Below, one piece after another: positions 3,756-56,600 of a stretch of 64,000 nt of DNA. The DNA is from Xestospongia bergquistia (lineage: Eukaryota > Porifera > Demospongiae > Haplosclerida > Petrosiidae): positions 4,774,001 to 4,838,000 of the forward strand of contig OZ014416.1 of the NCBI GenBank assembly GCA_963965975.1. The letters run 5' to 3'. The notes below the pieces were generated by a model. It had not been told where the DNA came from and did not search any database. It saw only the letters and a program-made list of their open reading frames with translations. The translations under genes and the position numbers were made by a program. The number at the start of each line of letters is the position of its first letter. The first letter of the stretch is position 1.

Positions 3756-5450
3756 CTAGGAGGAGACATCATGCCCATTTTAACAGTTGCCACGGCAACA
3801 TTCCTTAGCATAGAGTAGTCATAAAAATGACTATTAAAGACAAATTCTAACCTTAAGTTACCAACAATTTTTAACAGATTCTGGCATGTCTGGGAGAACA
3901 CACCACACCCATTTTTAAATTACCACTTTCTAAGAATCATAAAAATGCTATTACAGACAACTTTAAGCCTTACCTTATGAGCAAAAACTGTTTCTTTAAC
4001 ATATTTCGGCATTTCTAGGAAGGAGACACCACACTGATTTTTTAAATTGCCATGGCAACATTCCTATGAATAGAATAGTCATAAAAATGGCTATTACAGA
4101 CACCTTCTAACCTTAACGTATTCTGCTATTTCTGGGAGGAGACACCACACCTACTTTTATAATTGCCACGACAACATTCCTATGTATAGAATAGTTATAA
4201 AAATGACTATTACAGACAACTTTAAACCTTAAGTCACCAGCAATAACTTTTTTTCAACATATTCTGCTATTTCTGGGAGAAGACACCACACCCATTTTTT
4301 AAATTGCCATAGCAACATTCCTATGTATAGAGTAGTCATAAAATGGCTATTACAGACACCTTCTAACCTTAACATATTCTGCCATTTCTAAGAAGACACA
4401 CCACACCTACTTTAATAATTGCCACAACAACATTCCTATGTATAGAATAGTTATAAAAATGACCATTACAGACAACTTTATACCTTAAGTCACCACTCAC
4501 CAGCAATAACTGTTTCTTCAACATATTCTGCTAATTACTGGGAGGAGACACCACACCCCTTTTTAAAATTGCCATAGCAACATTCCTATGTATAGAATAG
4601 TCATTAAATGGCTATTACAGACACTTTGTAACCTTAACATATTCTGCCATTTCAGGGAGGAGACACCACACCTACTACAATAATTGCCACGACAATATTC
4701 CTATGTATAGAATAGCTATAAAAATGACTATTACAGGAAATTTTAAATCTTAAGTTACCAGCAAAAAGTGTTCCTTCAACATATTCTGCTATTTCTGGGA
4801 GGAGACACCACACCTACTTTTACAATTACAACGACAACATTCCTATGTATAGAATAGTTATAAAAATGACTATTATAGACAACTTTAAAATTTAAGTTAC
4901 CAGCAATAACTGTTTCTTCAACATATTCTTCTATTACTGGGAGGAGACACCACACCAATTTTTTTAAATTGCCATGGCAACATTCCTATGAATAGAGTAG
5001 TCATAAAATGGCTATTACAGACACCTTCTAACCTTAACGTATTCTGCTATTTCTGGGAGGAGACACCACACCTACTTTTACAATTGCAATGACAACATTC
5101 CTATGTATAGAATAGTTATAAAAATGACTATTACAGACAACATTAAATCTTAAGTTACCAGCAAAAGTCTTCCTTCAACATATTCTGATATTTCTGGGAG
5201 GAGACACCACAACTACTTTTATAATTGCCATGACAACATTCCTATGTATAGAATAGTTATAAAAATGACTATTACAGACAACTTTAAATCTTAAGTTACC
5301 AGCAAGTCTTCCTTCAACATATTCTGATATTTCTGGGAGGATACACCACACCCATTTGTTAAATTGCCATGGCAACATTCCTATGCATAGAATAATTATA
5401 AAAATGACTATTATGGATAATTTTAAATCTTAAGCTACCAGCAATAACTG
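3756..5450 (+). repeat. Satellite array 1, alternating long/short monomers
   Basis: About 13 tandem copies of a unit with AGGAGACACCACACC, ATTGCCATGGCAACATTCC, ATAGAATAGTTATAAAAATG and ACTATTACAGACAA. Distances between successive CCTTAA landmarks alternate between about 140-149 and 116-117 (4227, 4367, 4483, 4632, 4748), so part of the array has a dimeric higher-order unit. The short form lacks the AGTTACCAGCAATAACTG segment. Same orientation and family as the 53.6-59.5 kb array. Short open frames inside are by-products of the repeat. Confidence 0.9.
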
Positions 5451-5633: not shown

Positions 5634-5797
5634 GGGGGAGACCTTAGTTGCTCAATCTGGTTAACTGCATGCTATCAGATAATCTGGTCATTTCTTTTAG
5701 TGAGGAGGTAGCCCCTAAATGAAGATGATTTGAGGGGTGGTTATTGGTGTAACTTGCCTATGATGACATCATAGGGTTAATAATGGTAGTGTGATAC
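5634..5797 (+). repeat. Left terminal inverted repeat of the foldback element
   Basis: Pairs with 11703-11863. Shared landmarks from outside in: GGGGGAG, AAATGA.GAT.AT, GGTGTAAC, TTGCCTATGATGACATCAT, AGGGTTAATAATGGTAGTG. The right copy has about 27 extra bases (TGATGATATCGTATGACATC region) inside the palindromic CCTATGATGACATCATAGG block. Confidence 0.7.
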
Positions 5798-5800
5798 AGT

Positions 5801-7165
5801 TGTTGTAGGCAATACTGGTATTATAGGTAATAATGGTATTATAGGTAATACAGGTATTGTAGGTAATACTGGTATTCTAGGTAATATAGGTATTGTAAGT
5901 AATACTGGTATTCTAGGCAATACAGGTATTGTAGGTAATATTGGTATTGTAGGTAATACTGGTATTCTAGGTAATACAGGTATTGTAGGTAATATTGGTC
6001 TTATAGGTAATAATGGTATTGTGGGTAATACTGGTATTCTAGGTAATACAGGTATTGTAGGTAATACTGGTATTATAGGTAATACAGGTATTGTAGGTAA
6101 TACAGGTATTCTAGGTAATACAGGTATTGTAGGTAATACAGGTATTGTAGGTAATATTGGTATTGTAGGTAATACTGGTATTATAGGTAATACAGGTATT
6201 GTAGGTAATACTGGTATTCTAGGTAATATTGGTATTGTAGGTAATACAGGTATTCTAGGTAATACAGGTATTCTAAGTAATATTGGTATTGTAGGTAATA
6301 CAGGTATTGTAGGTAATACAGGTATTGTAGGTAATATTGGTATTGTAGGTAATACAGGTATTCTAGGTAATACAGGTATTGTACTAATACAGGTATTATA
6401 GGTAATACAGGTAATGTAGGTAATACAGGTATTCTAGGTAATACAGGTATTGTAGGTAATACTGGTATTATAGGTAATACAGGTATTGTAGGTAATACAG
6501 GTATTCTAGGTAATACAGGTATTCTAGGTAATATTGGTATTGTAGGTAATACTGGTATTCTAGGTAATACTGGTATTGTGGGTAATACTGGTATTGTAGG
6601 TAATACTGGTATTCTAGGTAATATTGGTATTGTAGGTAATACTGGTATTATAGGTAATACAGGTATTGTAGGTAATACTGGTATTCTAGGTAATACAGGT
6701 ATTTAGGTAATACTGGTATTGTAGGTAATACTGGTATTCTAGGTAATATAAGTATTGTAGGTAATACTGGTATTCTAGGTAATATTGGTATTCTAGGTAA
6801 TACAGGTATTGTAGGTAATACTGGTATTCTAGGTAAGACTGGTATTTTAAGTAATACTGGTATTCTAGGTAATACAGGTATCGTAGGTAATACTGGTATT
6901 ATAGGTAATAATGGTATTGTAGGTGATACTGGTATTCTAGGTAATACAGGTATTGTAGGTAATACTGGTATTATAGGTAGTAATGGTATTGTAGGTAATA
7001 CTGGTATTCTAGGTAATACAGGTATTGTAGGTAATTCCGGTATTGTAGGTAATATTGGTATTGTAGGTAATACAGGTATTTGTAGGTAATACTGGTATTG
7101 TTTGTAATATTGGTATTGTGGGTAATACTGGTATTGTAGGTAATACTGGTATTGTACATAATGCT
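5801..7165 (+). repeat. 18-bp minisatellite, left arm
   Basis: About 75 tandem copies of GGTAATACTGGTATTGTA. Variation is concentrated at two sites: the base before TAGG (G, C or A) and T/A in AC[T/A]GG. Read inward from the terminus it encodes a hexapeptide repeat, [V/L/I]GNTGI. Indels (for example near 6383 and 6703) break the frame, so no single frame crosses the arm. Confidence 0.95.
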
Positions 7166-7332
7166 GGTATTGTAAGAAATACTTGTACTTTAGTTAATAG
7201 TGCTAATTGGTTATTTTATTATTGTTACGTTTGTATTGAAGTAGGAATGGCATATTTATTAGCAAGTAGCTTAATATAAGTGAAGGTTTATATTATGAAC
7301 AGTTGATAAAAGCAATTGCTTGACATATTCAG

Positions 7333-8829
7333 AGCCTACGAGAAGAGTATGCTGCTGAACTAATTGTCAAATTGGTGAAAGACTGCAGCTGCATTGGTAA
7401 ATAATTGACACAATCAGAAATTGATTCCCTCACTGCCTCAACCTCTGTTTCTTCCATTGCACAACCATTTCCATCTAATGACATTATTGCACGATGTTTC
7501 ATTATACACTTTCAACAAAATGAAGACATTTATTCAGCACATATGATCAATTTATCCATAAGAAAAAGCATCTGTTTAGACCACACATTTAAGATGGCAT
7601 CAAATATTGGATATTTACGACCTGATGGAAGGTGGGTCACCCAGTATGGCAGTGTGTTTATGGTGTTGAATGAAGAAGGTGAAGTTGTTACTTGGCAATT
7701 TACCAACTCAACCTCAATTGATGAAGTGCAATCGCTATTGTGTAGTCTAAAAGAAAGAACCAAAGTTTCAGAAGATAGCCATTTGACAATATACGTTGAC
7801 AACTGTTGTCTTATTTGATCCAAGCTGAAGTTAATATTTGGAAATGACACAATTGTGAAGTTAGACGTATTTCATGCAGTACAGCGTGTAACACGGGCTA
7901 TGTCAAAAAGGCATTTGCTGAAATTGAAGGAGATGGCAATTGCTGTTTTACACCTGTGGCTTTTGGTCTGATCACCATCGGTACAAACCCAACATGTGAA
8001 AACAAACAGTTTCTGCTATCATGTGGAATTGATCTATCAATGAATATGCAAGCCATAGCAACTCAACTTAGATATCTTGCTGTAGCTGAGTGACTGAGAA
8101 TTATTGTTACTATCAAGACTTCGTGCCTAGTGTGGACATTCAGCAAGAAGCTTCCAAGTTTCTAGCCTCTGGATTCTACTACGGGGACCTAGCAGACACA
8201 ATGATTTTGGCATTATCAAATGCTCTTCAAACTACCATAATAGTATTTTCATCCATTGAATGCCATCCAGTTTTCTGTATATCACCATGCACACAGACAA
8301 TTTCTATGCCAATTATGGTAGCATTTACACAGTATGGCTCTGGGCATTATGATGGGGTACTCATTAAGAGTAAAGGTGATCAGACTCCAAAGGTGCATCT
8401 GACATGTAGCTGTGGAAAAAATGACAAAGAAGACAAACCCCATTGCTAAGAAATAAAGTGTAAGTATACAACAGTCATCTGTTGTGCTTGCTTGAAAAGC
8501 AAGAGAGCCTGTTCTGAATATTGTCGTTGCAAGAACTGTGGTAACAAACTTGGAAAAAAGTAGTACGTGAAGTCCAACAATGCAAAAGGAGGAAGCATGA
8601 ATGGCAAATGTTTCGTCACCTCAGTAGTATTGAATTTGCAGATGGTAAGCAGGAAGATTTATCAGCAGGACCATTAACTATCATGGAGTTATTTGTTCAG
8701 GAAAATGTACTAGTTTACTGTGAGGAAGAAGCAATAGAACCTACTCCAGAAAACATGTCACTATTATATAGACAAATTTTAGCATCAACAATAGTGTCCA
8801 GTCCTGCATTACCTCTTAAGTCAGAAGAA
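7333..8829 (+). pseudogene. Decayed transposase with OTU protease and CXC-like Cys-rich domain
   Basis: Central gene of the foldback element. 7333-7910 reads as an RNase-H-like DDE transposase: DHTFKMASNIGY holds a candidate first Asp (MULE transposases have DGTFK), IYVDNCC a second, followed by KLDVFHAVQR and KRH. The third acidic region is missing: right after KRH the frame changes into an OTU cysteine protease (EGDGNCCF, Cys box, ~7925; GDLADTMILAL ~8190; GSGHYDGVL, His box, ~8340). A cysteine-rich stretch (8403-8560) with CACLKSKRACSEYCRCKNCGN resembles a tesmin/CXC domain. A C-terminal block (8608-8829) reads LTIMELFVQENVLVYCEEE. Lesions: stops at 7402, 7816 and 8446, a frame change near 7910 (probable internal deletion) and a 1-nt shift near 8088. 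Not functional here; superfamily not settled. Confidence 0.7.
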
Positions 8830-9100
8830 TGAAAAGGACATAAGTAAATTTCTTGTCATGCACCAAAAAAATCTAGCTACCTTCCAAAGGCTGTGCAGAA
8901 ATCAACTTGATTGGAACACAAGTAAAGAATTATAAAAAAACGTTAAGAAAAATCAATATGTATATATAGACCATTGCATTAATTTCAGTTCTAATGTAAT
9001 AAACATAATCAAACATTACGTAGTAGACAGTATTATTCTATTATTATTACTGCGAAGAGAGTATATAAAATACCAAATGTTGTTATCACTTATTCCCTTA

Positions 9101-11702
9101 CAAGTATTACCTACAATACCAGTATTACCTACATTACCAGTATTACCTACAATACCAGTATTACCTACAATACCTGTAATACCTAGAATACCAGTATTAC
9201 CTACAATACCAATATTACCTACAATACCTCTATTACCTAGAATACCAGTATTACCTACAATACCAGTATTACCTACAATACCTGTATTACCTAGAATACC
9301 AGTATTACCTACAATACCAGTATTACCTACAATACCAATAATACCAGTATTACCAACAATACCAGTATTACACACTATACCAGTACTAACCGCAATACCA
9401 GTATTACCTAGAATACCAGTATTACCAACAATACCTGTATAACTTTGAATACCAGTATTACCCACAATACCAGTATTACCTACAATACCTGTATTACATA
9501 CAATACTAGTATTACCTAGAATACCTGTATTACCCAGAATACCAGTATTATCCATAATACCAATATTATCTAGAATACCAGTATTACCTAGAATACCAGT
9601 ATTACCTACAATACCTGTATTACCAACAATACCAATATTACCTACAATACCGGTATTGCCTATAATACCAGTATTACCAGTATTACCTAGTATTATCCAC
9701 AATACCAGTATTATCTACAATACCAGTATTACTTACAATACCTGTATTACCTAGAATACCAGTATTACCCATAATACCAGTATTACCTATAATACCAGTA
9801 TTACCCACAATACCAGTATTACCTAGAATACCAGTATTACCTAGAATACCAGTATTACCTACAATACCTGTATTACCTAAAATACTAGTATTACCCACAA
9901 TACCTGTATTACCTAGAATACTAGTATTACCCACAATACCTGCATTACCTACAATACCAGTATTACCTAGAATACCTGTATTACCTACAATATCACTATT
10001 ACCCACAATACCAATATTACATACAATACCAGAATTACCTATAATACCAGTATTACCCACAATACCTAGAATACCTGTATTACCTACAATACCAATATTA
10101 CCCACAATACCAGTATTACCTACAATACCTGTATTACCTATAATACCAGTATTACCTACAATACCAGTATTACTTACAATACCTGTATTACCTAGAATAC
10201 CAGTATTACCTATATTACTAGTATTACATAGAATACCAGTATTACCTAGAATACCTGTATTACCTAGAATACCAGTATTACCTACAATACCAGTATTACT
10301 TACAATACCTGTATTACCTAGAATACCAGCTAAACCTATATTACTAGTAATACCTAGAATACCAGTATTACCTAGAATACCTGTATTACCTAGAATACCA
10401 TTATTACCTACAATACCTGTATTACCTAGAATACCATTATTACCTACAATACCAGTATTACCTACAATACCTGTATTACCTAGAATACCAGTATTACCTA
10501 GAATACCAGTATTACCTACTATACCTGTATTACCTACAATACCTCTATTACCTACAATACCAATATTACCTAGAATACTAGCATTACCCACAATACCCGT
10601 ATTACCTAGAATACCAGTATTACCTAGAATACCTGCATTACCAACAATACCAGTATTACCTACAATACCTGCATTACCTACAATACCTGTATTGCCTAGA
10701 ATACCAGTATTACCTACAATACCAGTATTACCTACATTACCAGTATTACCAGTATTACCTACAATACCTATATTACCCACAATACCAGTATTACCTACAA
10801 TACCTGTATTACCTACAATACCAATATTACCTACAATAACAGTATTACCTAGAATACCTGTATTACCAACAATACCAGTATTACCTACAATACCAGTATT
10901 ACTTACAATACCTGTATTACCTAGAATACCAGTATTACCTATATTACCAGTATTACCTAGAATACCTGTATTACCTAGAATACCTGTATTACCTAGAATA
11001 CCAGTATTACCTACAATACCAGTATTACCTACAATACCTGTATTACCTAGAATACCAGTATTACCTACAATACCAGTATTACCCACAATACCAGCATTAC
11101 CTATAATACCAGTATTACCCACAATACCTGTATTACCTAGAATACCTGTATTACCTACAATACCAATATTACCTATAATACCAGTATTACCTACGATACC
11201 ATTATTACCTATAATACCAGTATTACCTACAATACCTGTATTACCTAGGATACCAGTATTACCTAGAATACCTGTATTACCTATAATACCAATATTACCT
11301 ACAATACCAGTATTACCTAGAATACCAGTATTACCTACAATACCTGTATTACCTAGAATACCAATATTACCTAGAATACCAGTATTACCTAGAATACCTG
11401 CATTACCAACAATACCAGTATTACCTACAATACCTGTATTACTTACAATACCAGTATTACCTACAATACCTGTATTACCTACAATACCTGTATTACCTAG
11501 AATACCAGTATTACCTACAATACCAGTATTACCTACAATACCAGTATTACCTACAATACCTGTATTACCTAGAATACCAGTATTACCCACAATACCAGTA
11601 TTACCTACAATACCTGCATTACCTACAATACCTGTATTACCTAGAATACCAGTATTACCTAAAATACCAGTATTACTTGCAATGCCAGTATTATTTACAA
11701 TC
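9101..11702 (-). repeat. 18-bp minisatellite, right arm (inverted)
   Basis: About 145 copies of the same unit as the left arm in opposite orientation (+ strand reads AATACCAGTATTACCTAC). A 635-codon minus-strand stretch (9683-11590) stays open because the unit is a multiple of three with no stop codon in that frame; the + strand likewise stays open as LPTIPV repeats. The right arm is nearly twice as long as the left. I treat these open frames as repeat by-products. Confidence 0.95.
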
Positions 11703-11863
11703 CCATCACACTACCATTATTAACCCTATGATGTCATACGATATCATCAATGATGTCATCATAGGCAAAGTTACACCAAGAAGGACCCGAGGGGCTCATC
11801 ATAATCGTCATTTGACGCAATTATCATCACGTGGTAATAACTGCCAAATTAGGCGCTCCCCCC
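11703..11863 (-). repeat. Right terminal inverted repeat of the foldback element
   Basis: Inverted match to 5634-5797, most clearly ATCACACTACCATTATTAACCC at 11704 and ATGATGTCATCATAGGCAA at 11751, ending GGCGCTCCCCCC at 11863. Confidence 0.7.
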
Positions 11864-21600: not shown

Positions 21601-24600
21601 ATCATATAACGTATAAATTAGCCTTCAAAACTAGCTACTTACTGTAAAATCTTGTCTGCGATAAAACTACAATCCTAGCGCCATTTTGATCATTGACCAC
21701 ACCCAATATACGTATGAACAATTCCAGTGGTCAGTGGTAAGCTTATACTTCATTTATGGACAATACAGCTAACTTCAAAGTATACATCACAGGTGATTTT
21801 TGAAATTATCAGTAGATACGCAAGTTAAAAGGGATCAATATGGTACTTGAAATTTTGAAATCTGACTAGTAATAAGGAAGTTACAGTGAAAAAACCAAGT
21901 GCCAGGTGAACGCGAATGGACTTTAGTTACATTGACTATATACTTTACTGTCTAATAGTTTATGTTTTGTAATTAAATAACTTTGTCTTTTATGTTCATA
22001 GGAAGGATGTACACCTGCACACTATGCAGCAGAGAATGGACAAACTGACACAGTAAAAGTGTTAATTGAAATTGGACAAGCTGATATTTGCACTAAGGAT
22101 ATAGTAAGTCACAGTAATTGTATTACAAGACATATCATTGCACCAAATTATGACCAATGAAGTAAATGAAATTACTTCATTTGGTTAATGGTTAATAAAT
22201 CAGGTTAATAAATCAATAACACATGATTTTGAGGTGTATTACTGATTCAATTAGAAACCTACACTCTATAAAAACTGTTATTTACCAGTTCATGATTCTT
22301 TTAATAAACATTTCAATGATAATGGCATTATGTAGTATTGCTTAATTCAATTAGCAAATTAGCAATATTAGTACTCTCATTATATGACTTGTAGCGAGGC
22401 TATTATAATATATATATATATATAAACTAACAAAACAGATTTCTCCCTGTTAGTCATGATACTATTAATCATAGCCATTTGTCTAACTAGTAGTGTAATA
22501 CAATCATACCTGAGATCCTTACTTTTCTTGACCATTATACATTGTGTTAACCACAAAACATGTTATAAACACTTTATCAGAAACTGTTTATTGCAGTTAC
22601 TATTCCAAATTTCTCAGAAACAATGTCAAACATTTTTAAATACTTAATTTATATGTATTTATCAATCATCATGGAAATTTTGAAAGAATTTCTTAACCCT
22701 TAGAAGACCTCTATCACAAATTCACAAATTTGTGACACATGGAATGTTAATTTTAAAAATGTTTCTTATATACCTTAAATTATTTATAGAAAGCTTAACA
22801 AATTATTATTTAATAGTTATTGCTATAGAACAACAAGTGATTTCGACAACAAGTGCAAGCACAAGTGACATTTAGACTGACTCCAGACAAGAATTAGACA
22901 GGACTTCCTTAGCAGCTTTGAACCATTTTTCCTTTAACTGACTGATTGTCCTTATATTTAACATTTGAATAATATTATAGCTATCATATAACGTATAAAT
23001 TAGCCTTCAAAACTAGCTACTTACGGTAAAATCTTGTCAGCAATAAAACTTCAATCCTAGTGCCATTTTGATCCTTGACCACACCCAATATACGTATGAT
23101 CAATTCCAGTGGTCAGTGGTATGCTCATACTTCATTTATGGACAATACAGCTAACTTCAAAGTATACATCACAGGTGATTTTTGAAATAATCAGTAGATA
23201 CGCAAGTTAAAAGGGATCAATATGGTACTTGAAATTTTGAAATCTGACTAGTAATAAGGAAGTTACAGTGAAAAAACCAAGTACCAGGTGAACGCGAATG
23301 GACTTTAGTTACATTGACTATATAGTTTACTGTCTAATAGTTTATGTTTTGTAATTAAATAACTTTGTCTATTATGTTCGTAGAATGGATGTACACCTGC
23401 ACACTATGCAGTAATGAAGGGTCATACTGACACAGTAAAAGTGTTAATTGAAATTGGACAAGCTGATATTTGCACTAAGGATGATGTAAGTCACAGTAAT
23501 TGTATTACAAGACATATCATTGTACCAAATTATGACCAATGAAGTAAATGAAATTACTTCATTTGGTTAATGGTTAATAAATCAGGTTAATAAATCAATA
23601 AGACACATAATTTGAAGTGTATTACTGATTTAATAATAAACCTGTACTCTACAACAACTGTTCTTTACCAGTTCTTGATTCTTTTAATATAATTTTCCAA
23701 AACATTTCAATAATAATAATGTTTAGTATTGATTAACTTAAGACAATAAGGGAACATGCAAAAAATTGGACTTTCATTATGTGACTTGTAACAAGACTAG
23801 TCTATATAATAACACAAGAACTTATAAATAATGTTCAAGCTTTTTCTCTATTAGTCATAATACTATTAATCATAGCCATTTGTCTAACCAGTAGTGTAAT
23901 ACTATCATGTCTGAGTCCTTACTTTGCTTGACCATTATTGCACTTCAGTTAGTAACAAAAACATTTTATACAAATTTTGGTAGGAAAACGTTTATTACCA
24001 TAACTATTCCAAATTTCTTGAAAACAATCCAAAGAGCACATATGTCACCTTATCATCAGTTACTAAGCAACAATTACTAAGTCATCATAGCAACATTTAC
24101 TAAGAAAAAGATATAGAATTTAGTCATTGTAGCCCTTCTATATTCTATACACATTTTGAGAGAAAACTGTTTATTGCCATGGCTATTCCAAATTTAATGA
24201 AAACAATGTCAAAATATACTATATCTTTAATTAATATGTATTCATCAATTTTTATGAAAGATTTATAAATTTCAAAAGCAATTGTACCAATGAAATCACA
24301 AAATAGAAGGAGTCATATAATAAGCAACAGCATATAATTCACTATTGCAACAGTATGTAATGTCAACATAGTGACAATCACTATAGCAAGATCATTAATG
24401 TCACCATAGCAACTGTTACTATAGCAAATAATAGTCACAATGGTTGTTATTAATGTTTATCAAATCCCATAACCTGCTATAAAAACAACATAATGGCAAG
24501 CCCATTCTCACTATAGTGAGTAAATAGAGACTTATTTGTCAACCATAGTGAATGCATATCAAAGTCACAGTTTACTTCCAGTAAGAATTTTCAGCACTAT

Positions 24601-27600
24601 GTTCCCATTGTTCTTATTAGCAACAAAATATATATACTACAATATCATTGTACCAAATTATGACCAATGAATTAATTAAAATTACTTCATTTGAGGTTAA
24701 TAAATCAATAAGACACATGTTTTGATGTGTATTGCTGATTACTGAAACCTGCACTCTACAGCAACTGTTCTTTACCAGCTCATGATTATTTTAATATGTT
24801 TTTACCAAACATTTCAATAATAATAATACTAATGTGTATTATTGATGAATTTAATTAGCAAATGTACTAAAATTGTACCATTTTGCCTTATGTTAACAAC
24901 AAAAACATTTTATAATCATTTTAACAGAAACTGTTTATTGCCATAACTATTCCAAATTTCTTAGAAACAATGCCAAAAGTTTCTAGATGTTTAATTGTAT
25001 GTATTAATCAATCACCATGAAAATTTTGCAATAGTTTCTTCAACGAAATGTACCCATTAAATAATAAAGTCCAAGGAATCCTGTCATCATAGAAGAAAGC
25101 AACAGCACATAATTTATTATAGCAACAGCACATGTGTCATCATAGCAACAGTTACTAAACAAATGAAAGTTCGTCACCATAACATGAATTACTCAGTAAC
25201 AGCAGATATGTCGCCATAGCAACTGTTGCTATACCAATAACATATGAGTATAAACAACTATAGTATAACAAGAATAAACAATGTCATAGTTACCATAGCA
25301 ACATTGCTATAGCAATTAGGTATGCATCTATCATGATAGCAATGATCTCCATGGTAACAGTTGTCATAACATCATTACCATAGCAACAACATATAGATAT
25401 ATTACTATATTAATGTTACTTATAACACTGACAATTGAGCAAATTGTTGTTTTAAGATGAAAATTATAGCATTATGCTTTCATATGTTCACAAACTTTGT
25501 CAAAACTTGATTGTCCTTATGTTTAACATTTGAATAATATTATAGCTATCATATAACGTATAAATTAGCCTTCAAAACTAGCTACTTATGGTAAAATCTT
25601 GTCTGCGATAAAACTTCAATCCTAGCAACATTTTGGTCATTGACCACCCCCAATATACGTATGAACAATTCCAGTGGTCAGTGGTATGCTCATACTTCAT
25701 TTATGGACAATACAGCTAACTTCAAAGTATACATCACAGGTGATTTTTGAAATTATCAGTAGATACGCAAGTTAAAAGGGATCAATATGGTACTTGAAAT
25801 TTTGAAATCTGACTAGTAATAAGGAAGTTACAGCGAAAAAACCAAGTACCAGGTGAACGCGAATGGACTTTAGTTACATTGACTATATAGTTTACTGTCT
25901 AATAGTTTATGTTTTGTAATTAAATAACTTTGTCTATTATGTTCCTAGTATGAATGTACACCTGCACACTATGCAGTAATGAAGGGTCATACTGACACAG
26001 TAAAAGTGTTAATTGAAATTGGACAAGCTGATATTTGCACTAAGGATGATGTAAGTCACAGTAATTGTATTACAAGACATATCATTGTACCAAATTATGA
26101 CCAATGAAGTAAATGAAATTACTTCATTTGGTTAATGGTTAATAAATCAGGTTAATAAATCAATAAGACACATAATTTGAAGTGTATTACTGATTTAATA
26201 ATAAACCTGTACTCTACAACAACTGTTCTTTACCAGTTCTTGATTCTTTTAATATAATTTTCCAAAACATTTCAATAATAATAATGTTTAATATTGATTA
26301 ACTTAAGACAATAAGGGAACATGCAAAAAATTGGACTTTCATTATGTGACTTGTAACAAGACTAGTCTATATAATAACACAAGAACTTATAAATAATGTT
26401 CAAGCTTTTTCTCTATTAGTCATAATACTATTAATCATAGCCATTTGTCTAACCAGTAGTGTAATACTATCATGTCTGAGTCCTTACTTTGCTTGACCAT
26501 TATTGCACTTCAGTTAGTAACAAAAACATTTTATACAAATTTTGGTAGGAAAACGTTTATTACCATAACTATTCCAAATTTCTTGATAACTATCCAAAGA
26601 GCACATATGTCACCTTATCATCAGTTACTAAGCAACAATTACTAAGTCATCATAGCAACATTTACTAAGAAAAAGATATAGAATTTAGTCATTGTAGCCC
26701 TTCTATATTCTATACACATTTTGAGAGAAAACTGTTTATTGCCATGGCTATTCCAAATTTAATGAAAACAATGTCAAAATATACTATATCTTTAATTAAT
26801 ATGTATTCATCAATTTTTATGAAAGATTTATAAATTTCAAAAGCAATTGTACCAATGAAATCACAAAATAGAAGGAGTCATATAATAAGCAACAGCATAT
26901 AATTTACTATTGCAACAGTATGTAATGTCACCATAGTGACAATCACTATAGCAAGATCATTAATGTCACCATAACAACTGTTACTATAGCAAATAATAGT
27001 CACAATGGTTGTTATTAATGTTTATCAAATCTCATAACTTGCTATAAAAACAACATATGGCAAGCCCATTCTCACTATAGTGAGTAAATAAAGACTTATT
27101 TGTCAACCATAGTGAATGCATATCAAAGTCACAGTTTACTTCTAGTAAGAATTTTCAGCACTATGTTCCCATTGTTCTTATTAGCAACAAAATATATATA
27201 CTACAATATCATTGTACCAAATTATGACCAATGAATTAATTAAAATTACTTCATTTGATGTTAATAAATCAATAAGACACATGTTTTGATGTGTATTACT
27301 GATTACTGAAACCTGCACTCTACAGCAACTGTTCTTTACCAGCTCATGATTATTTTAATATGTTTTTACCAAACATTTCAATAATAATAATACTAATGTG
27401 TATTATTGATGAATTTAATTAGCAAATGTGCTAAAATTGTACCATTATACCTTATGTTAACAACAAAAACATTTTATAATCATTTTAGCAGAAACTGTTT
27501 ATTGCCATAACTATTCCAAATTTCTTAGAAACAATGCCAAAAGTTTCTAGATGTTTAATTGTATGTATTCATCAATCACCATGAACATTTTGCAAAAGTT

Positions 27601-30600
27601 TCTTCAACCAAATGTACCCATTAAATAATAAAGTCCAAGGAATCATGTCATCATAGAAGAAAGCAACAGCACATAATTTATTATAGCAAGAGCACATATG
27701 TCATCATAGCAACAGTTACTGAGCAAATGAAAGTTCGTCACCATAACATGAATTACTCAGTAACAGCAAATATGTTGCCATAGCAACTATTGCTATACCA
27801 ATAACATATGAGTATAAACGATTATAGTATAACAAGAATAAACAATGTCATTGTTACCATAGCAACATTGCTATAGCAATTAGGTATGCATCTATCATGA
27901 TAGCAATGATCTCCATGGTAACAGTTGTCATAACATCATTACCATAGCAACAACATATAGATATATTACTATATTAATGTTACTTATAACACTGACAATT
28001 GAGCAAATTGTTGTTTTAAGATGAAAATTATAGCATTATGCTTTGATATGTTTATAAACTTTGTCAAAAGTTATAAAATATTTAAATAATGACCATTATT
28101 TAATTTCTATTCATAATTGACAATTTTTGCCAAAAAATGATTTGCTATCAAAAGTTTAACATATAGTTACTGTGACCTTTTTATACATATTTTGGCACAA
28201 AACAATTTATTGCCATAATTATTCAAGTTTTGTTGAAAACAATGCTAAAACATACCATCTCTTTAATTCATAATTATATATTCATCAATCTCTATGAAAG
28301 ATTTATAAATTTCAAAAGCAATTGTATCACTGAAATCATCACAAAATATAAGGAGTCACACAATAAGCAATAGCATATAATTATATCTCTGGTATGTAAT
28401 GTCACCATAGCAACAATCACTATAGCAACAGCATTTATTTCACCATAGCAATGGTACTATAGTGTCACAGTGTTTGTTATTAATGACTATGAAATCTCAC
28501 ATAAAAATAACACAGTGGGAAGTTTATTCTAGCTATAGAGAGTAAAGAAAGCCTTTTTGTCAACCATAGTGAATACAAAAATACAAATAGAAATAGACAT
28601 GCACTGTTGGTACAAGCAAGTAACATATTAAAGTAAAGATTTTCAGCACTATGTTCTCAATGTTCTTATTAGCAATGAGATGTATGTATAACATTATTTA
28701 TTTTTCACATTACTATATTATAGTAATACAAATACAACATATTGGACACACAGTTGACTGTGAACCCACAAGCATTGTGAAGTGTTGTATAATATAAATA
28801 TATCACTGTTGATTGAGAGTATACTCATACAACAAAGTACATGTACATATAATGTTCCAAAGATATTCTTATATCATTTGTAAGTGTTGATCCCATAACC
28901 TGCTGTAAAAATAACACTGCCGTTACATACCACTGATGTCTATCTCCACTAGTCACTGCTATTTCAGATTTTACTGTTCCTAGAAAAGTGTTCTTTTCAA
29001 CTTCTCTGACTCTTTTGAGTCAATGACACTTCACCTCATAATGTCCCTATCTATATCACTTTTTCCTGAGCTGGACATATCAATCTGTTCTGACTAGAGG
29101 TGACTTTCCACACCTTGTACATCTATACTATTATAGTCCACTGATCCTTTTCTCTTGACTTTATTATGGAAATGAGTTCATGTCCCTCTTGATCTTTTTC
29201 TTGACTGGGCTATACAGCTTTATGAAAAGTTTTTGAATCTTTTTCATGAATAATTGTCTGTCATTTTTAACAGGTTTACTTTGTCTAACTTCAATAATAG
29301 CTGTCTATAACTTGAGTTCAGCATCTAACTGTTTTGCTCTGACAGTTTACAAATCAAAATTCTGACTAAAATCTGATCTCAAATCATCTCTTCTCTGAGA
29401 TCGCCATATGTACGATTTAGCATACATCTGTAACATATTAACATCACAGTTTAGTTTGCAATAAAAATTCTCAGCACTATACCTCTCATTGTTCATATTA
29501 GCAAGAAAATGTTAAGGATTCAGTAATGTCGCAATACTTGTATATACTAAAATATTTTTTCACAGTACTATGTATAGTAATATATATAAAAAATTGTTAT
29601 ATATATAGTTGACTGTTAACCCACAAGCAATGTGAACTGTTGTATAATATAAATATATCATTGTTGACTGTGAGCATATTCATACAAACAAGGTACATGT
29701 ACATATGATGTTCATAAGATATTCTTTTGTCATCTGTACCTTGTAAGGTTGTGATTATTGTCTATTACATAAGCAGCTTGTTTGCTAGGAGGATCAGGTT
29801 TCTTTTCTAGAAACTTTATTTAAGTAGTGTACATTTATATAATATAATATTATTAATGTCAACCATTTGTTGAAGTACCAAGTCATGGTTTGTTCATTAT
29901 TGCTAATATTTATAATAACATTGATAGTGTTTGTTTTGTTTATAAGATGATAATGATGAATAATAACAAACTATTACAATTAAAGTATGTTCACTTAGTT
30001 CACTATTACAAACATAGCATTGTGAAACAAAAATCATGACAATCACCAGATTCATTAATCATATAATGATGTTTAAATTAGTAACTGGCTGTACATTTGA
30101 CCTCTTTGTGTACCATCAAGTAATGTATTATAAAATTGTATGTGTAGTCATCAGTAGTAGATTGGGTAGCAGTTTATACCATTTCTTGAGTACTGTAATC
30201 ATGTTTGTCAATACAACATAATGTTGTACATTGTAATGTCTTACAAGTATTGTTGTTGTTACCATGGTGATAAATATAGGAGTTAAAAATTTGTGATAAT
30301 AAGTTTTGAAAGATTGTTCACCATTTGCTGCATATTTTACCATATATCTACTATAAGTATTTATATCAATAATTAATTCAATATTAATATTTGTTCTCTA
30401 TTATGAATTAATAATAATAATAATCTTAATATTACTGATAGCAATAATGAAATAAACTCTGTACCTTTGTTGCATACTTTGTAGTTCTTCATTGCCTACT
30501 GAGATGAAAAATCTCCAAAGATGTATCTGATATCTTTAATTATACAATTATTATATCATCAGTGCTTTAGATACATATTTAATTGAAAATATGGTTGTCT

Positions 30601-33600
30601 ATGTTTCATTTCAAAGTATAATAAGAAAATTGAGTAATCCTTAAAAATTGCCACTTCCATCATTTCTTCCTTGAATATATCTGATCAGATCTTTAATTTG
30701 GTTTCTTCACTTTGTTGGTTACTAGGAAGTAAACATATAAACATATGTTGATTTGTACTTTATACATATCAAAGTTATCACACTGTGGACTACTTTAGAT
30801 ATGAAAACCTATTCAAACTTCCTGGCTTACATCATTTGCTCTGTTGATTCTAAGGAGTCTATTAGCTTTCTTTCTCCAATATAAAAATTATATAAACATT
30901 TCTATTTTTTCATGTACTGTGACATTATTAAATCAGCTACATGATGAAGGACATTTTTATGATCAGAATTTCTGGCTTCAAAAACACCTGCATTGAGTTC
31001 ACCTGTTTGCTAGTCTTGTAAAGTTGTATGATGTCTGTAAAACAAATGCATACTTATTAATATAGTCTGTATTTGTTGTTAGAGATGGCACTGAAGACTA
31101 GGCATTGAATATTAATAATTGATGAACCCAACATAGTGGCATCCCTGTTAAAGTTCACAATATTAGAGCCATTCTTGTATTAAATATAATTTAGTCTATT
31201 GTAGAAGCTGCTGCTACAAAGAAGAGGATTGAAACATAATTGGAATGCTTTTTTGAATTGCCAAGATACACTTTTGCTACACATTTGTAGTTGGCAGGTG
31301 CTTCTTACAAGCAATGCAAACTTGAACCATTTTTACATATGAAAACTTCTTCATGTACTTAGTTTCAAGGTATTGTTCAATGTGAATTTAAGTGATAATA
31401 TGCTTTTCATCTTTGTTACCGTCTAATGTAAAAATATCTGTATGGTGTTAACATCAGCCATGACAATTCTAATGTTAACAAACTCTTCTGTAACTACTCA
31501 TATGTAAACTGGTGGATAGGTCCTTAGACTCTCTCTTACTATGTCTTCCCTAAATTTTTGGCTTTCCTTCCTTTATGCTTACCTCTTTTCAAAATAAATT
31601 TTACTTTGTTGTGTGAGACTTTGTATCTACCTATGCTAAGGCATAAAACAGTGCTCTATAAGATCAAAGAGTATATTTATGGTAACAAGTTTAAATCATT
31701 GTCAATACCTTATAGATACACTGAGGTGTAGTTGACTTTGTTAATACGATTCATAGTCTTAAATCCACAGATACTATGAGTGATCTTTTGATACAAATTT
31801 TGTATCTATATATCAACGTTATTATTGAACTTATACCTGTGGTAATTTTTATTCAGTTAACTGACACCTATTAATATATGTGTCAGTTCATGTTAATTAC
31901 CTCATGTTTGTGGCAATTTAAATGCCTTTCAAAACATAATGGCTAACCATTGATGACTTACATTAATGTTACTTACATCCTGCACAATTTTTTGGTCTTA
32001 ATGCTTGACTCTTACTATGCAGCTTGCTTTGCAAGTTATGATATTCAGTATTTTTTCATATTTTGGCCACCTAGTTTATAATGAATATTAATTTAAATCA
32101 CCATCCATTGAACTTTTCCATGCCTGTTAGTGCCACAACATTTTTATAACCTTAGAGGAAGTTATAGCAAACCCCAGAAAAAATTATTGTATAAAAAGTT
32201 GTCATTATTAAATGTTCTATAGAGGCTATTTCCAAGCTTTTCAAAGCACTACTTTTACTGTCAAAGTACTCAAAGTTAAAATAGATATTGCTGATGTAAA
32301 AGCATAATCATATTGGTATAAAATTAATCATTGCAAATGTTCTAGTTTTATAGTTATCATAGTTCAAACAAAAATTAATTATAAAAAAAGAAAACAACAC
32401 TGTGTCATATCTAAATAGATAATGCTGTTCACTACATGATTGTTGTTCTCAAAAACACAAAAGCAATTATGTAAATTGAGATTCACATTAATTGACATGT
32501 GACCCTAAACAATCCTAGATCTGTTCATATGTAGTATGTCAGGTAATTAAAACAAACTAGTCATGAAAGCATAACAATTCCTCTTATCAAAACAAATGAC
32601 AACACTAGCAGTCAATAGAAGTATGACTAATTAAAATAACAATATCTTTCAGTCATTATACTCTGTTTATAACTGTTATATTATTGTCAGTGATAAAGAA
32701 ATAGATAGAGCTAATTTGTGTTATTGATATTTTCAGTTTTAATATCTTAATATCTTTCTCATCATTTTGCCAAGAATCTTCTATCCATGAGATATTAATA
32801 ATGATATAATTATTAAATATAATATTATAACAAATTATTTTGCTCCATGTTCTCATCTAGACCTATGTGTTATGTGTTTACTTCTTTCTCTAGTTTGGCA
32901 ATACTCTATTGCATTCTGCCTGTTTATGTGGTAGTAAGGACACAATACAATACCTGCTAAATGATGTGAAGTTAAATCCACTGGCTGTAAACGATAATGA
33001 ACAAATACCATTAGAACTTATTTCACCAAATCTCAAAGACAGATTCCAATTACTAAAATTGTTTCAACCATTTCTTCAACATAATATAGAGTATCCAGTA
33101 GATTCATATGCCAAACTATTCCTTTGTGGAAAAACAAATGCTGGTAAAAGCTCTTTAGCTGCTGTTATATCTTATCGTGCAGATAAAGTTCCTGGAATTG
33201 ATCCAGAAAAGTGTATTGAAGGTGTTGTATTACAAACCACTGGAATTGACTACCACAACATTCGTAGTTGGGAAATAGGAAACGTTGTAATTTTTGATTT
33301 TGCTGGACATGCAGAATATTACAGTAGCCATGCTGCAGTATTGGAAACTCTTTTGTTGAGGTCACCAGCTGTCTTTGTAATTGTAACTAATCTTACTGAT
33401 GAGAAAGAGATAATAAAGAGGGACCTGTACTTCTGGTTTAATTTTATCGAGAATGTTAGCACTAATTTAATTAACCGCAGTCAAGTTATCATTGTTGGAA
33501 GCCATATTGATCTTTTACCACATGAAAATGATTACAAATCTTTTATTAATGAAATTGCAAGTAGTGCCATTCGTGATCAAAGATATATTCGTTTCCTGGC

Positions 33601-36600
33601 AATGGACTGTCATAGACCAGGAGGTAAAGGTGTTAATGAATTTATGACTAATCTAAAGAGGAGCTGTGAAGCTGTTATTGACAGACAAGATAAAATAAGC
33701 TACCATTGTCATTGTCTACATGCTTTCCTTCAACAGCTTCAACGTGTTGCTATTAGCTTAGATGACCTCTGTTCAAGAATTGAGAATATGAATGAGCCAT
33801 GTCTTTTGTCAGACCGATCAACTGTGTTGAAGTTCTTGACCATTCTTGGAGAAAAGGGTCTTGTCTTAGTTTTAGGAGATTGGTTAATTATTGATAAGAA
33901 AGCTCTGTTAACTGAAGTAAATGGTATTCTTTTTAATAAAAGCATTGATCGTGTATGTAAACCAGTTACCAGTAACACTGGTATCATGCCAGTGTCCACA
34001 TTAGCTAAATTATTTCCCAACCACAATACAAAAATGCTAATTCGCTTCTTAATAAGTCTACAATTCTGTCACCAAATCAATTCTCATTCTGTTAGTAACA
34101 TTACAAACAATATACCATCTGAAGAACCTCCTGTAACTGAAGATACCAAATACTTGTTTTTTCCTGCACTTATTAAGGATGAGAGGCCCTCACCAGTCTT
34201 CAATACAACAGATGGATTTGGTTGGTGTCTATGGTGTCCAGATCCACAACAATTTCTACCTATACGATTCCTTCATACACTACTTCGTCACTTGGCCTAT
34301 ACTCGTTGTCTTCCTCCTGACAACACTGGTATTACTGAAACCAATATTAAAGTCAAGGAACTGTATCGTGATTGTACTATGTGGAAAAATGGCATTTATT
34401 GGAAAGATGAAAATGATATCGAAATGGTGGTGGAGGTTACTGAACACAACAGATGTGTTACAATTCTAGTTTCTCACAGTAGTTCCTTGAAAAGTTATGA
34501 AATCCGTACATCTCTCATTAAAGAAGTACTTAGTCTTAAGAACAAGATATGCTCGTGTGAAGTGGAGCAGTTTGTTATTCCTCCTGGTAATGTCAATGAT
34601 GTTATTGAGAAGGAGCAGAGACACCGTATACTCTATTCCCTCAGAAAAGTAGCCCTTGGAGTTATTACCAAATGTCCTATTGGTGATGCAAACGAGAAAA
34701 CTGCTAAAAGAGTTGATGTCAGATCAATTGTGGGTGAGAAAGAACCTTACCTCTGCATTGCACCCATTGTCATTGAGGCACTCTTCACAGACTGCAACAA
34801 TGACATACTATTACCACATCATTATATCCGACACATAGAGGAAGCATGTAAGGAGATAATGCCCCTCTCATCTCATCGGACTCATCTGTCGGCGAGGAAA
34901 CGTCTTGATCAATTTAGCATTTTTACTGGCCGTAATCCTTTGGTAAGTTAACAATTTAATAATTTGTAATTGTTTGGAATTTGTACATAGACTACATCCT
35001 CTCGACCTATTAGAGAAGAAGAGATACAATGTCTGCCTGAAGATGATGTTTATGTTACAAAGAAAGGTAGGTTATCAAGCCTATTCTGCTTAAATTTATT
35101 TGTTAATGGTTATAGAATCTGGTACCACTAACTCTGATCAACAAATGCAATCATTGAGTACATATGATATATCAGGTATGTTTGTTTGTCAAATTCATTT
35201 TGTTGGTAAGTAATGATCCAATGTAATAAGGTGTTAATATTAGAGATATGTAGTATGTTTACTTTGGACACTACCTCAAGCTTATATACTATAATTATAA
35301 AGAATACTATACACTGGAATGTATTAACAGTTATTTTGACCTCTTATTTTGAAATTTATAAAAAGTTTAGTTTAGCTTTTTTACTTCAGTTACTAGCAAT
35401 AGTAAAAGATATTTGTGATTGTTTTATATTTCACTACTACTGCCTGTCCGAATTGTTACAACAGCCTGTTATTGTTTATTTAATACTATACTATGTTACA
35501 GATAATCAAGAGTCAAAGTTTGGTACGTCCACTGACAATTTTAGTCATTTTCCTAAATTACGTAAGTTAATAGATTCATTTCTCAACAATTGTTTTATTT
35601 AATTGTCCTGTTAGTTGCTCAGCCAAAAAGACCTGAAGTTTTAACTCAACTAGTATGTATTGATACTTTATGGCGTAATATTGGTAATGGTCTTGGAGTC
35701 AGTTTTAATATCCTTCAAGGTTTGGCTGAATCCAACCAGTCAAATCAAGCAAAACTCGACCAAGTTATTCAGAAGTGGCTGGACATGAATGGTAAAGATG
35801 ATGGTGCTCCTGTCACATGGATCACAATATTAGATATTCTAAAGGGACCACTTGTTGACAACAAAGCCCTAGCTATGAAGATATACCAGTCATTGAAAGA
35901 AGAAAGTTCAAAAGAACAGATAGCTCCAAGTAAATATACAATAGACTCATGATGTTGATACATAAGTATTTTAATCTTGATGCAGTTAATAGTTGTGACT
36001 GTGATAATATTGTTATTAGCATTAATCTGCTCCATAGATTCTGTCTGACTTAACATAATATTATTTTTGTCTCAGTTTTATGAGATGAACTAGAAGGTTA
36101 ATATATTTTTAGTGATTTTTATCGCTTTATCTCTTGCCAGTATATGTTTGTTCTGACTCATATAGCAATAAGGATTATGTGTATTGCTCACATATATGTT
36201 TTAGTGTACGTACTAATTATAGTTAAAGGCTATCCAACTATCAACTTGTGATATTCTACAAACTATTTGTGTATAACATGTGACATTTTATGAGGTTAAC
36301 TTTATATCCTATATAGACCCTGCTAAGGAATCAGTTACTACTAATACAACTGAAGGATATAATACTGACAAGTTACCTATGGAAAGTCAGGTATGATTTA
36401 TCTTCTTATGTTGTAAGTCATGTTAATTTTGGTTATTCATAAATTCAGTTCCTTAATGATATAGTAGACAATGATTACATCATCAATCTTTCCTATTGTC
36501 TATTTATCACACACTTACTCTACTCAACAGCAACAATCCTCACAAGAACTTTCAAATGAGCCCAAAGAAAAGACTGTCTCTAGTGATAGTACACATCAAG

Positions 36601-53639: not shown

Positions 53640-56600
53640 TGGATAGTTATTAAAATGTCTATTACGGACAACTTCAAGACTTAACTTATCAGGAATAAAT
53701 CTTTCTTCCTAATATTTAGGGGAAAGACATCACACCTACTTTTACAGTTGCCACAACAGCATTCCTATGTATACAATAGTTATAAACATGATTATTACAG
53801 ACAACTTTATGTTAGCAGGAACAACTCTTTCTTCAACATTTTCTAATATTCTGGGTAACACCCACATTTACAGTTGCTACGACAACACCCCTATGTATAG
53901 AATAGCCATAAAAATGACTATTATAGACAATTTTCAAACCTTAAGTTACCAGCAATAACTCTTTTTTCCTAATATTCAGGGTAAAAACACAATACCTAAT
54001 TTTACGGTTGCCACGACAATTAACAACCCTATGAATAGAATAGTTATAAAAATGACTATTACAGACAATTTCAAACCTTAAGTTACCGGCAATAACTCTC
54101 TCTTCCTAATATTCAGGGTAAACACATAGTACCTAATTTTACGGTTGCCATGACAACACTCCTATGCTTAGAATAGTTATAAAAATGACTATCATAGACA
54201 ATTTCAAACCTTAATTTACAAAGCAATAACTCTCTCTTCCTAATATTTAGGGTAAAGACACAATACCTAATTTTACAGTTGCCATGGCAACACCCCTACG
54301 AATAGAATAGTTATAAAAATGACTATTACAGAAACCTTAAGTTGCCAGTAATAACTCTCTCTTCCTAATATTCAGGGTAAAGACACAATACCTAATTTTA
54401 CAGTTGCCACGACAACACTCCTATGCATAGAATAGTTATAAAAATGACTATTACAGACAATTTCAAACCTTAACTTACCAGCAATAACTCTTTCTTCCTA
54501 ATATTCAGGATAAAGACACCACACCCAATTTTACTGTTCCCATTACAACACTCCTATGCATAGAATAGTTAGAAAAATGACTAGTACAGACAATTTCAAC
54601 CCTTAACTTACCAGCAATAACACTTTCTTCAGGGTAAAGACACCACACCCAATTTTATGGTTGCCATGACAACACTCCTATGCATAGAATAGTTATAAAA
54701 ATGACTATTACAGACAATTTTAAGCCTTAACTTACCAGCAATAACACTTTCTTCCTAATATTCAGGGTAAAGACACCACACCAAATTATACGGTTGCCAT
54801 GACAACAATCCTATGCGTAGAATAGTTATAAAAATGACTATTACAGATAATTTTGAACCTTAACTTACCAGCAATTACACTTTCTTCAAGGTAAAGACAC
54901 CACACCCAATTTTATGGTTGCCACGAAAACACTCATATGCATAGAATAGTTAGAAAAATGACTATTACAGACAATTTTAAGCCTTAACTTACTAGCAATA
55001 ACACTTTCTTCCTAATATTCAGGGTAAAGACACCACACCCAATTTTATGGTTGACATGACTACACTCCAATCCATAGAATAATTATAAAAATGACTATTA
55101 CAGAAAATATTAAACCTATAACTTACCAGCAATAACTATTTCTTCCAAATATTCAGGGTAAAGACACCACACCTAACTTTACAGTTGCCATGACAACAAT
55201 CCTATGCATAGAATAGTTATAAACATGACTATTATAGACTATTTCAAACCTTAACTTACCAGAAATAACTCTTTCTTCCTAATATTCAGGGTAAAGACAC
55301 CACACCTAACTTTACAGTTGCCATGACAACAATCCTATGCATAGAATAGTTGTAAACATGACTATTATAGACTATTTCAAACCTTAACTTACCAGCAATA
55401 ACACTTTCTTCCTAATATTCAGGATAAAGACACCACACCCAATTTTACGGTTGCCACGACAACACTCCTATGCATAGAATAGTTAGAAAAATGACTATTA
55501 CAGACAAGTTCAAACCTTAACTTACCAGCAATTACACTTTCTTCAAGGTAAAGACACCACACCCAATTTTATGGTTGCCACGAAAACACTCATATGCATA
55601 GAATAGTTAGAAAAATGACTATTACAGACAATTTTAAGCCTTAACTTACTAGCAATAACACTTTCTTCCTAATATTCAGGGTAAAGACACCACACCCAAT
55701 TTTATGGTTGACATGACTACACTCCTATCCATAGAATAATTATAAAAATGACTATTACAGAAAATATTAAACCTATAACTTACCAGCAATAACTATTTCT
55801 TCCAAATATTCAGGGTAAAGACACCACACCTAACTTTACAGTTGCCATGACAACAATCCTATGCATAGAATAGTTATAAACATGACTATTATAGACTATT
55901 TCAAACCTTAACTTACCACCAATAACTCTTTCTTCATAATATTCAGGGTAAAGACACTATACCCAATTTTACGGTTGCCATGACAACTATCCTAAAAATG
56001 ACTATTACAGACAATTTCAAACCTTAACTTACCAGCAATAACTCTCTTCCTAATATTCAGGGTAAAGACACCACACCCAATTTTATGGTTGCCACGACAA
56101 CACTCCTATGAATAGAATAGTTATAAAAATGACTATTACAGACAATTTCAAACCTTAACTTACCAGCAATAACTCTTTCTTCCTAATATTCAGGGTAAAG
56201 ACACCACACCTAATTTTACGGTTGCTATGACAACAATCCTATGCATAGAATAGTTATAAAAATGACTATTACAGACATTTCAAACCTTAACTTACCAGCA
56301 ATAACACTATCTTCCAAATGTTCAGGGTAAAGACATCACACCCAATTTAGGGTTGCCATAACAACACTCCTATGCATAGAATAGTTAGAATAATGACTAT
56401 TACAGACAATTTCAAACCTTAACTTACCAGAAATAACTCTTTCTTCCTAATATTCAGGATAAAGACACCACACCCAATTTTACGGTTCCCATGACAACAA
56501 TAGTATGCATAAAATAGTTATAAAAATGACTATTAAAGACAATTTTAAGCCTTAACTTACCAGCAATAACACTTTCTTCCTAATATTCAGGGTAAAGACA

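Follow-up and report, generated by a model that had tools for sequence, protein, structure and literature searches.

A broken, probable foldback transposon with two opposed minisatellite arms, and its relatives, in the genome of the sponge Xestospongia bergquistia

Features of the locus

The DNA analysed here, called the window throughout, is a stretch of 64,000 nucleotides from contig OZ014416.1 of Xestospongia bergquistia (C6:4774001-4838000 in our numbering), in a genome assembly of 146.46 Mb and 21 contigs; the GC content of the DNA examined was 30.7%. A 6,054-bp element, copy W, lies in it at 5735-11788 and consists of a gene remnant flanked by two arrays of a single 18-bp unit in opposite orientations, closed by terminal inverted repeats (TIRs). 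We report that it is very probably a broken copy of a cut-and-paste DNA transposon of the foldback type, and one that is probably non-autonomous; five other full copies were read, on five contigs. The features of the locus are as follows, with arrays delimited by Tandem Repeats Finder (TRF) and loci elsewhere in the genome given L numbers.

5634..5734, plus strand: left part of a host repeat, outside the element; 97% identity with L015, over bases 1-98 of that stretch
5735..11788, no strand assigned: foldback element, window copy W, 6,054 bp; ends set by the five other full copies
5735..5802, plus strand: left TIR, end type GGGTGG; core without one T
5803..7199, plus strand: left arm, 18-bp array, 77.7 units, 1.40 kb (TRF)
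7200..9098, plus strand: central region with transposase-gene remnant; 97% to the other five copies over matching parts, 92% for one L034 piece
7405..7818, plus strand: presumed catalytic-domain remnant, DHTFK ... YVDNCC, by eye Asp 1 and Asp 2; ends in TGA at 7816-7818
7919..7920, plus strand: internal-deletion junction; about 818 bp gone, common to five of six copies
7920..8395, plus strand: OTU-like cysteine protease remnant, EGDGNCCF ... SGHYDGV; a frameshift near 8090 splits the domain
8396..8563, plus strand: CXC-like cysteine-rich stretch with one internal stop; cysteine pattern by eye
9099..11705, minus strand: right arm, 146.3 units and 2.61 kb of the 18-bp array, inverted relative to the left arm (TRF)
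11706..11788, minus strand: right TIR, end type GGGTCC
11789..11863, plus strand: right part of the host repeat, outside the element; begins with the eight bases GAGGGGCT

The two opposed arrays of a single 18-bp unit, first noticed in a sequence-only reading of this DNA, were thus recovered by TRF, and 593-base stretches of the two arms are up to 91% complementary. The core of the right TIR, GGTGTAACTTTGCCTATGATG, occurs exactly at 11757-11777 and is the sole match in the window at three or fewer mismatches (0 expected from 100 shuffles); the left TIR copy went unseen in this search because one T is missing from it.

Boundaries and insertion site

The right end (11690-11863) was used as a genome query and gave 41 places, from which repeat counts are to be taken as lower bounds. 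Twenty-five were in long fetched stretches, five were host repeats and three were the window's own ends; among the remainder, L012, L016, L021 and L025 were viewed with 1.5-kb flanks, and C6:2370541, C6:6098731, C6:1518758 and C6:1322254 were left out. Thirty of the 41 matches stopped at query base 98-100, equivalent to 11787-11789, four stopped at 93-94, and five lay wholly inside query bases 108-174.

The outer bounds had initially been placed at 5634 and 11863, and these proved too wide. A host repeat of about 200 bp is uninterrupted at four other places (L015, L018, L020 and L023), which identifies 5634 and 11863 as ends of the host repeat, the element itself running from 5735 to 11788. 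These four are among the five matches confined to query bases 108-174. With L015 as query, the other three, likewise on C6, matched at 96-98% over 201 bases and two more distant places at 78%. The uninterrupted repeats are paralogues and do not represent alleles of this insertion site; all four carry CCC where W holds the element and GAGGGGCT.

Copies across the genome

Six full copies were read, namely W (6,054 bp), L031 (7,112 bp), L032 (7,886 bp), L033 (3,621 bp), L034 (7,925 bp) and L035 (8,284 bp), a size range of 3.6-8.3 kb. Each has one GGGTCC end and one GGGTGG end (GGGCGG in L035), and long inverted tandem-repeat arms around a central region, the structural mark of a foldback element, are present in all six. 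Perfect 8-bp target duplications, agreeing in 8/8 bases, flank five of them: GGACTGTG, GCTATTCA, TTATTACT, AGATTTAA and CAACAAAC. Reading the structure as a foldback transposon whose arms are minisatellites is therefore upheld by the same order of end, array, gene, array and end at five other loci. A genome search for other loci of this order had been proposed as the check in the sequence-only reading, and the five further elements, every one with its 8-bp duplication, satisfy it; a single copy in the genome, or TIR-like ends occurring only within a larger inversion, had been named there as the contrary outcome.

The array unit is nearly private to the family. A 36-mer of two units, allowed up to two mismatches, had 352 + 390 = 742 matches in the genome and none for the reversed control; by our own script count under the same rule, 690 of these fall inside the six full copies and 33 in six other fetched loci.

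Several partial or derived relatives were also seen, and partial ends such as those at L036, L037 and L041 were read. At L048 (6316-6500) there is a 185-bp miniature element with GGGTGG and GGGTCC ends and an 8-bp duplication, CAATTGAA. L040 (5716-9860) holds 4.1 kb between related ends, with one 54-unit arm and 123 bp of the family centre; the remaining sequence resembles a reverse transcriptase by eye, and the flanks agree by eye in 7/8 bases, given a one-base shift of the left end. Among L011, L012, L013, L016, L021, L025, L039 and L049 (101-2587), several C6 places have a common flank beside a foldback end, so they look like one insertion multiplied by duplication; at L049 the foldback end passes directly into the 133-bp satellite also present in the window.

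The central gene remnant

The gene in W is dead, as it carries the deletion of about 818 bp, a stop and frameshifts. Its positions 7609-7929 match residues 5-111 of the L034 product at 96%, and the missing part is equivalent to about 1228-2045 of the L034 centre; the junction letters were seen in W and L031, and the deletion was placed by alignment coordinates in L032, L033 and L035. A central transposase gene had been claimed for this position; what lies between the arms is a gene remnant, broken at 7919/7920, by the TGA at 7816-7818 and by the frameshifts. An open frame of 718 codons is present in L034, with another of 235 codons upstream of it. A genome search with the L034 protein, in which 22/22 candidates were scored, recovered the middle part in no additional copy; beyond the six copies it found one decayed relative on C1, with 31-33% identity over residues 442-672.

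An OTU domain in the gene is likely. The Pfam profile PF02338 (OTU) matched the whole L034 protein at E 0.011, below its curated cut-off, and the domain alone at E 5.7e-4 and 20.8 bits (cut-off 23.3), over positions 2-128 of 128; the motifs DGNC and HY are both present in L034 by eye. The case for a CXC domain is weak, with PF03638 (CXC/tesmin-like) reaching E 1.8 and 9.4 bits against a cut-off of 23.5. The catalytic domain is identified by motifs seen by eye and is to be taken as presumptive. NCBIfam and PHROGs gave nothing for either L034 frame. Sequences related to the L034 protein were also sought beyond this genome: viral contigs gave no pattern match, and genome contigs gave four, none of them related; against solved structures there were three matches, the best at E 0.37.

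In the mechanism that we propose, a DDE-type transposase with OTU and CXC-like domains would cut at the GGGTCC and GGGTGG ends; it would act in trans, coming from an intact copy that went unseen in this assembly. The array unit may stem from tandem duplication of the inner end sequence, and the array may multiply a binding site of the transposase. There is a modest sign of such an origin: the inner end sequence TAGGGTTAATAATGGTAGTGT aligns with the unit at a score of 26, which 6/2,000 shuffles equalled or bettered. The transposase may bind the array units; in Galileo, repeats of this kind have been demonstrated to be extra transposase binding sites (PMC3688188).

Relation to known elements

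Foldback elements arose in several transposon superfamilies. The anatomy found here is that of a foldback element, closest to Tm1 by the different short motifs at its two ends.

Tm1 (Mutator/Foldback, Meloidogyne; PMC3169594) is alike in its unequal tandem-repeat arms, its two different short terminal motifs outside a common inverted repeat, its target duplications of 8-10 bp, a range into which the 8-bp duplications here fall, and its miniature derivatives. It differs in that its arms have 1-9 units of about 14 bp, compared with 28-195 units of 18 bp here, and in that its transposase is of the Phantom branch of Mutator-like elements (MULEs) with FLYWCH, whereas the present gene gives no MULE match and has OTU and CXC-like stretches. 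These likenesses make it a serious possibility, somewhat short of an even chance, that the element is an ordinary Phantom-branch MULE like Tm1 with a diverged transposase, and the order of motifs in the remnant also looks MULE-like by eye, an impression and not a test. Yet a genome search with the MULE profile PF10551 found at least 113 places at E ≤0.001 (150 of 195 candidates scored), of which none lies within the six copies. The L034 gene likewise gave no MULE match up to E 10 in hmmscan, although a diverged domain could escape. Target duplications of 8 bp occur in other superfamilies besides MULE. As the PF10551 profile found no domain in the element, we do not place it under MULE. The PF10551 matches elsewhere in the genome include open frames of up to 469 codons.

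Galileo (P superfamily, Drosophila; PMC3573991, PMC3688188) also has tandem repeats in long TIRs, arms that are unequal within a copy, and some copies without matching target duplications. Inner sequence has been recruited into its inverted repeat (PMC3573991), a likeness to the inverted stretch of 92-95 bp in L032, L033 and L035. It differs in its 7-bp duplications, its THAP/P-type transposase, and its repeats, which are about 210 bp long and number two or three in the described subfamily (PMC3573991, PMC3688188). Tetris (foldback, Drosophila virilis; PMC4079207) resembles the present family in its 8-10 bp duplications, its tandem-repeat arms, and a stretch common to the repeat unit and the outer end, from which an origin of the unit was proposed there. 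Its units are about 220 bp long, no transposase gene was found for it, and its repeats have spread as satellite arrays, unlike the situation here, with 690/742 unit-pair matches inside six copies.

For the OTU domain the nearest likeness is Ginger1 (PMC2836005), a DNA transposase with a C-terminal OTU domain; it differs in a Gypsy-integrase-type catalytic domain and TIRs of 44-270 bp in the table rows consulted, and the available part of that text does not mention foldback arms. Pfam matches of L034, taken up to E 10, included no integrase family such as a Ginger-type catalytic domain would give, although a diverged domain could escape. The KDZ domain (Kyakuja-Dileera-Zisupton; PF18758) had no genome match, a search in which the control genomes were also silent, and was absent from the L034 hmmscan. 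PMC6875170, considered as a source on the OTU domain, was set aside, as 'OTU' there denotes an operational taxonomic unit. The pairing of a foldback element with an OTU/CXC-bearing transposase had been noted as one not known to be described. An OTU domain in a DNA transposase is known from Ginger1; for the pairing itself, a limited literature search named no foldback element with an OTU transposase in titles or abstract openings. The element is set apart from the described foldback systems compared here by the size of its arms, their uniformity and its gene with a probable OTU domain.

We advance tentatively, and with less confidence than we give to the MULE assignment, that the element represents a DDE superfamily absent from the profile libraries. 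Its transposase would fuse catalytic, OTU and CXC domains, and its arms would form a self-maintaining binding platform, amplified in each arm and matched by copying and crossing-over between arms.

Arm length and exchange between arms

The numbers of units in the arms 5'/3' of the gene are 78/146 in W, 150/130 in L031, 146/195 in L032, 28/77 in L033, 152/100 in L034 and 177/187 in L035. The arms thus range from 28 to 195 units (0.5 to 3.5 kb) and make up 52-79% of element length, while the 1.1 kb of centre common to the copies, on its 3' side, diverges by 0.9-3.1% among them; arm length therefore evolves much faster than sequence. Exact self-repeats of at least 80 bp occur in 11/12 arms, the longest being 516 bp with an offset of 325 (counted without a shuffle control), and point to duplication inside an arm. 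Slippage or unequal exchange within one arm may account for part of the change, and conversion and crossing-over between both arms of one element for another. Independent expansion of the arms, proposed from the twofold difference within W, accordingly agrees with the spread in length, and is qualified by inter-arm blocks beyond shuffles in 2/6 copies.

Plain nucleotide alignment of the arms was register-degenerate and uninformative, and was replaced by unit-order alignment over all 66 arm pairs. Thirty shuffles with 22 random pairs each gave a top score of 22.2, and 20 shuffles of all 66 pairs gave a longest exact run of 125 bp. A unit-order score above 40 was obtained by 6/30 same-side pairs of different copies and by 0/30 opposite-side pairs, from which the 5' and 3' arms appear to follow mostly distinct lines of descent among the copies. 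Within L035, however, the two arms scored 178, the top of the 66 pairs (46 matches in 53 aligned units), with an exact inter-arm run of 470 bp, and within L033 they scored 37 (10/10 units matching) with a run of 204 bp. The within-element pairs of the other four copies, at 10.7-19.5, were inside the shuffle range. In the 3' arm of L035 the block covers units 30-82, and the flanking units 1-25 and 116-166 match the 3' arms of other copies, which suggests a patch and not an exchange of the whole end.

An old common ancestry of the arms, in place of later copying, would also leave common blocks in L035 and L033, and we consider it improbable. The same common unit variants are found in both arms, and two opposite-arm pairs of different copies likewise exceed the shuffles in exact runs. 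Ancestry of this kind is hard to reconcile with an L035 pair that outscores 65 others and has 470 bp in one exact run, with a block framed on both sides by 3'-arm-like units, and with opposite-side pairs of different copies of which none exceeds 40 (scores of 22-40 were not displayed).

The centre has also turned relative to the ends. In W and L031 the GGGTCC end is found on the 3' side of the gene, whereas L032, L033, L034 and L035 have it on the 5' side. A 47-bp signature of the outer array, present at 4/6 GGGTCC ends and 0/6 other ends, shows the same placement, on the 3' side in W and L031 and on the 5' side in L032 and L035, and so travels with the end and not with the gene. Since end and signature switch sides together relative to the gene, the centre is reversed between the arms in two copies, the expected product of crossing-over between inverted arms. 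In addition, 92-95 bp of the 3' inner flank are inverted at the 5' inner border in L032, L033 and L035.

The arrays might instead be coding, as the 18-bp unit translates as GNTGIV, a collagen-like Gly-X-Y pattern, and long open frames of up to 755 codons run through most arms. We regard this as very improbable because each of the 28 phase shifts counted across the 12 arms breaks the frame, none being a multiple of three; moreover, by our own reading of the code, all consensus codons are more than one change away from a stop, and long open frames are therefore expected without coding.

Evidence against the proposed reading

A number of observations weigh against the reading given above. The window copy is without a target duplication, its left flank reading GATTTGAG and its right flank GAGGGGCT, and when the related host repeats L051-L054 were compared for the missing duplication, GAGGGGCT was in none of the four. 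This would suit a local inversion of a minisatellite with no mobile unit, an explanation hardly credible and ruled out by five loci, spread over five contigs, that have these ends together with perfect 8-bp duplications, and by the host repeat standing uninterrupted elsewhere.

The gene raises further doubts. No intact gene was found among the six copies, and L034, the only copy read that holds the middle of the gene, is without the DHTFK stretch (the first Asp motif) kept in W; as none holds both, the copies read are probably all non-autonomous. No transposase profile in Pfam, NCBIfam or PHROGs matched the L034 gene, so that of the OTU/CXC-bearing transposase originally claimed the OTU part stands as likely, the CXC part is weak, and the transposase part goes unmatched. 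An AlphaFold2 single-sequence model of the window remnant had a mean predicted local distance difference test score (pLDDT) of 36.9. DUF3919, which matched the window remnant read through its stop at E 0.0088, under the cut-off, was taken as chance.

For the arms, unit and end are modestly alike, the best shuffle scoring 33 against the 26 observed. Two opposite-side pairs of different copies, L032_5/L035_3 (165 bp) and L032_3/L033_5 (143 bp), also beat the shuffles in exact runs; these runs fit blocks received by the arms concerned, which seem to be the receiving ones, yet they blur the separation of lineages. The 47-bp signature was picked post hoc and is absent from the GGGTCC ends of L033 and L034, and a corresponding signature for the opposite end is matched almost exactly (0-2 errors) in L032-L035 only and not in W or L031. 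Finally, assembly errors are possible in arrays so long, the analysis having used the assembled sequence alone.

Other features of the window

Tandem arrays with units of about 115-142 bp and 133 bp lie at 3939-5444 and 53643-59501, and belong to the same satellite family by eye; TRF also gives periods of 265-267 bp and longer for them. A 685-codon open frame at 32894-34951 has Roc GTPase and ankyrin matches just under the cut-offs. In the region 23572-28430, three short tandem units (13, 38 and 23 bp) are each found twice at a spacing of 2.56 kb (23572/26137, 24339/26904 and 25098/27662), which suggests a larger tandem duplication.

Significance

The family gives six snapshots of a foldback element within one genome, with centres at most 3.1% apart over the common 1.1 kb and arms that can be read unit by unit. 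Duplication inside an arm, copying between arms and turning of the centre thereby become routes of arm change that can be separated by sequence in a foldback family. The family also links foldback anatomy to a putative transposase with a probable OTU domain and no superfamily assigned to it.

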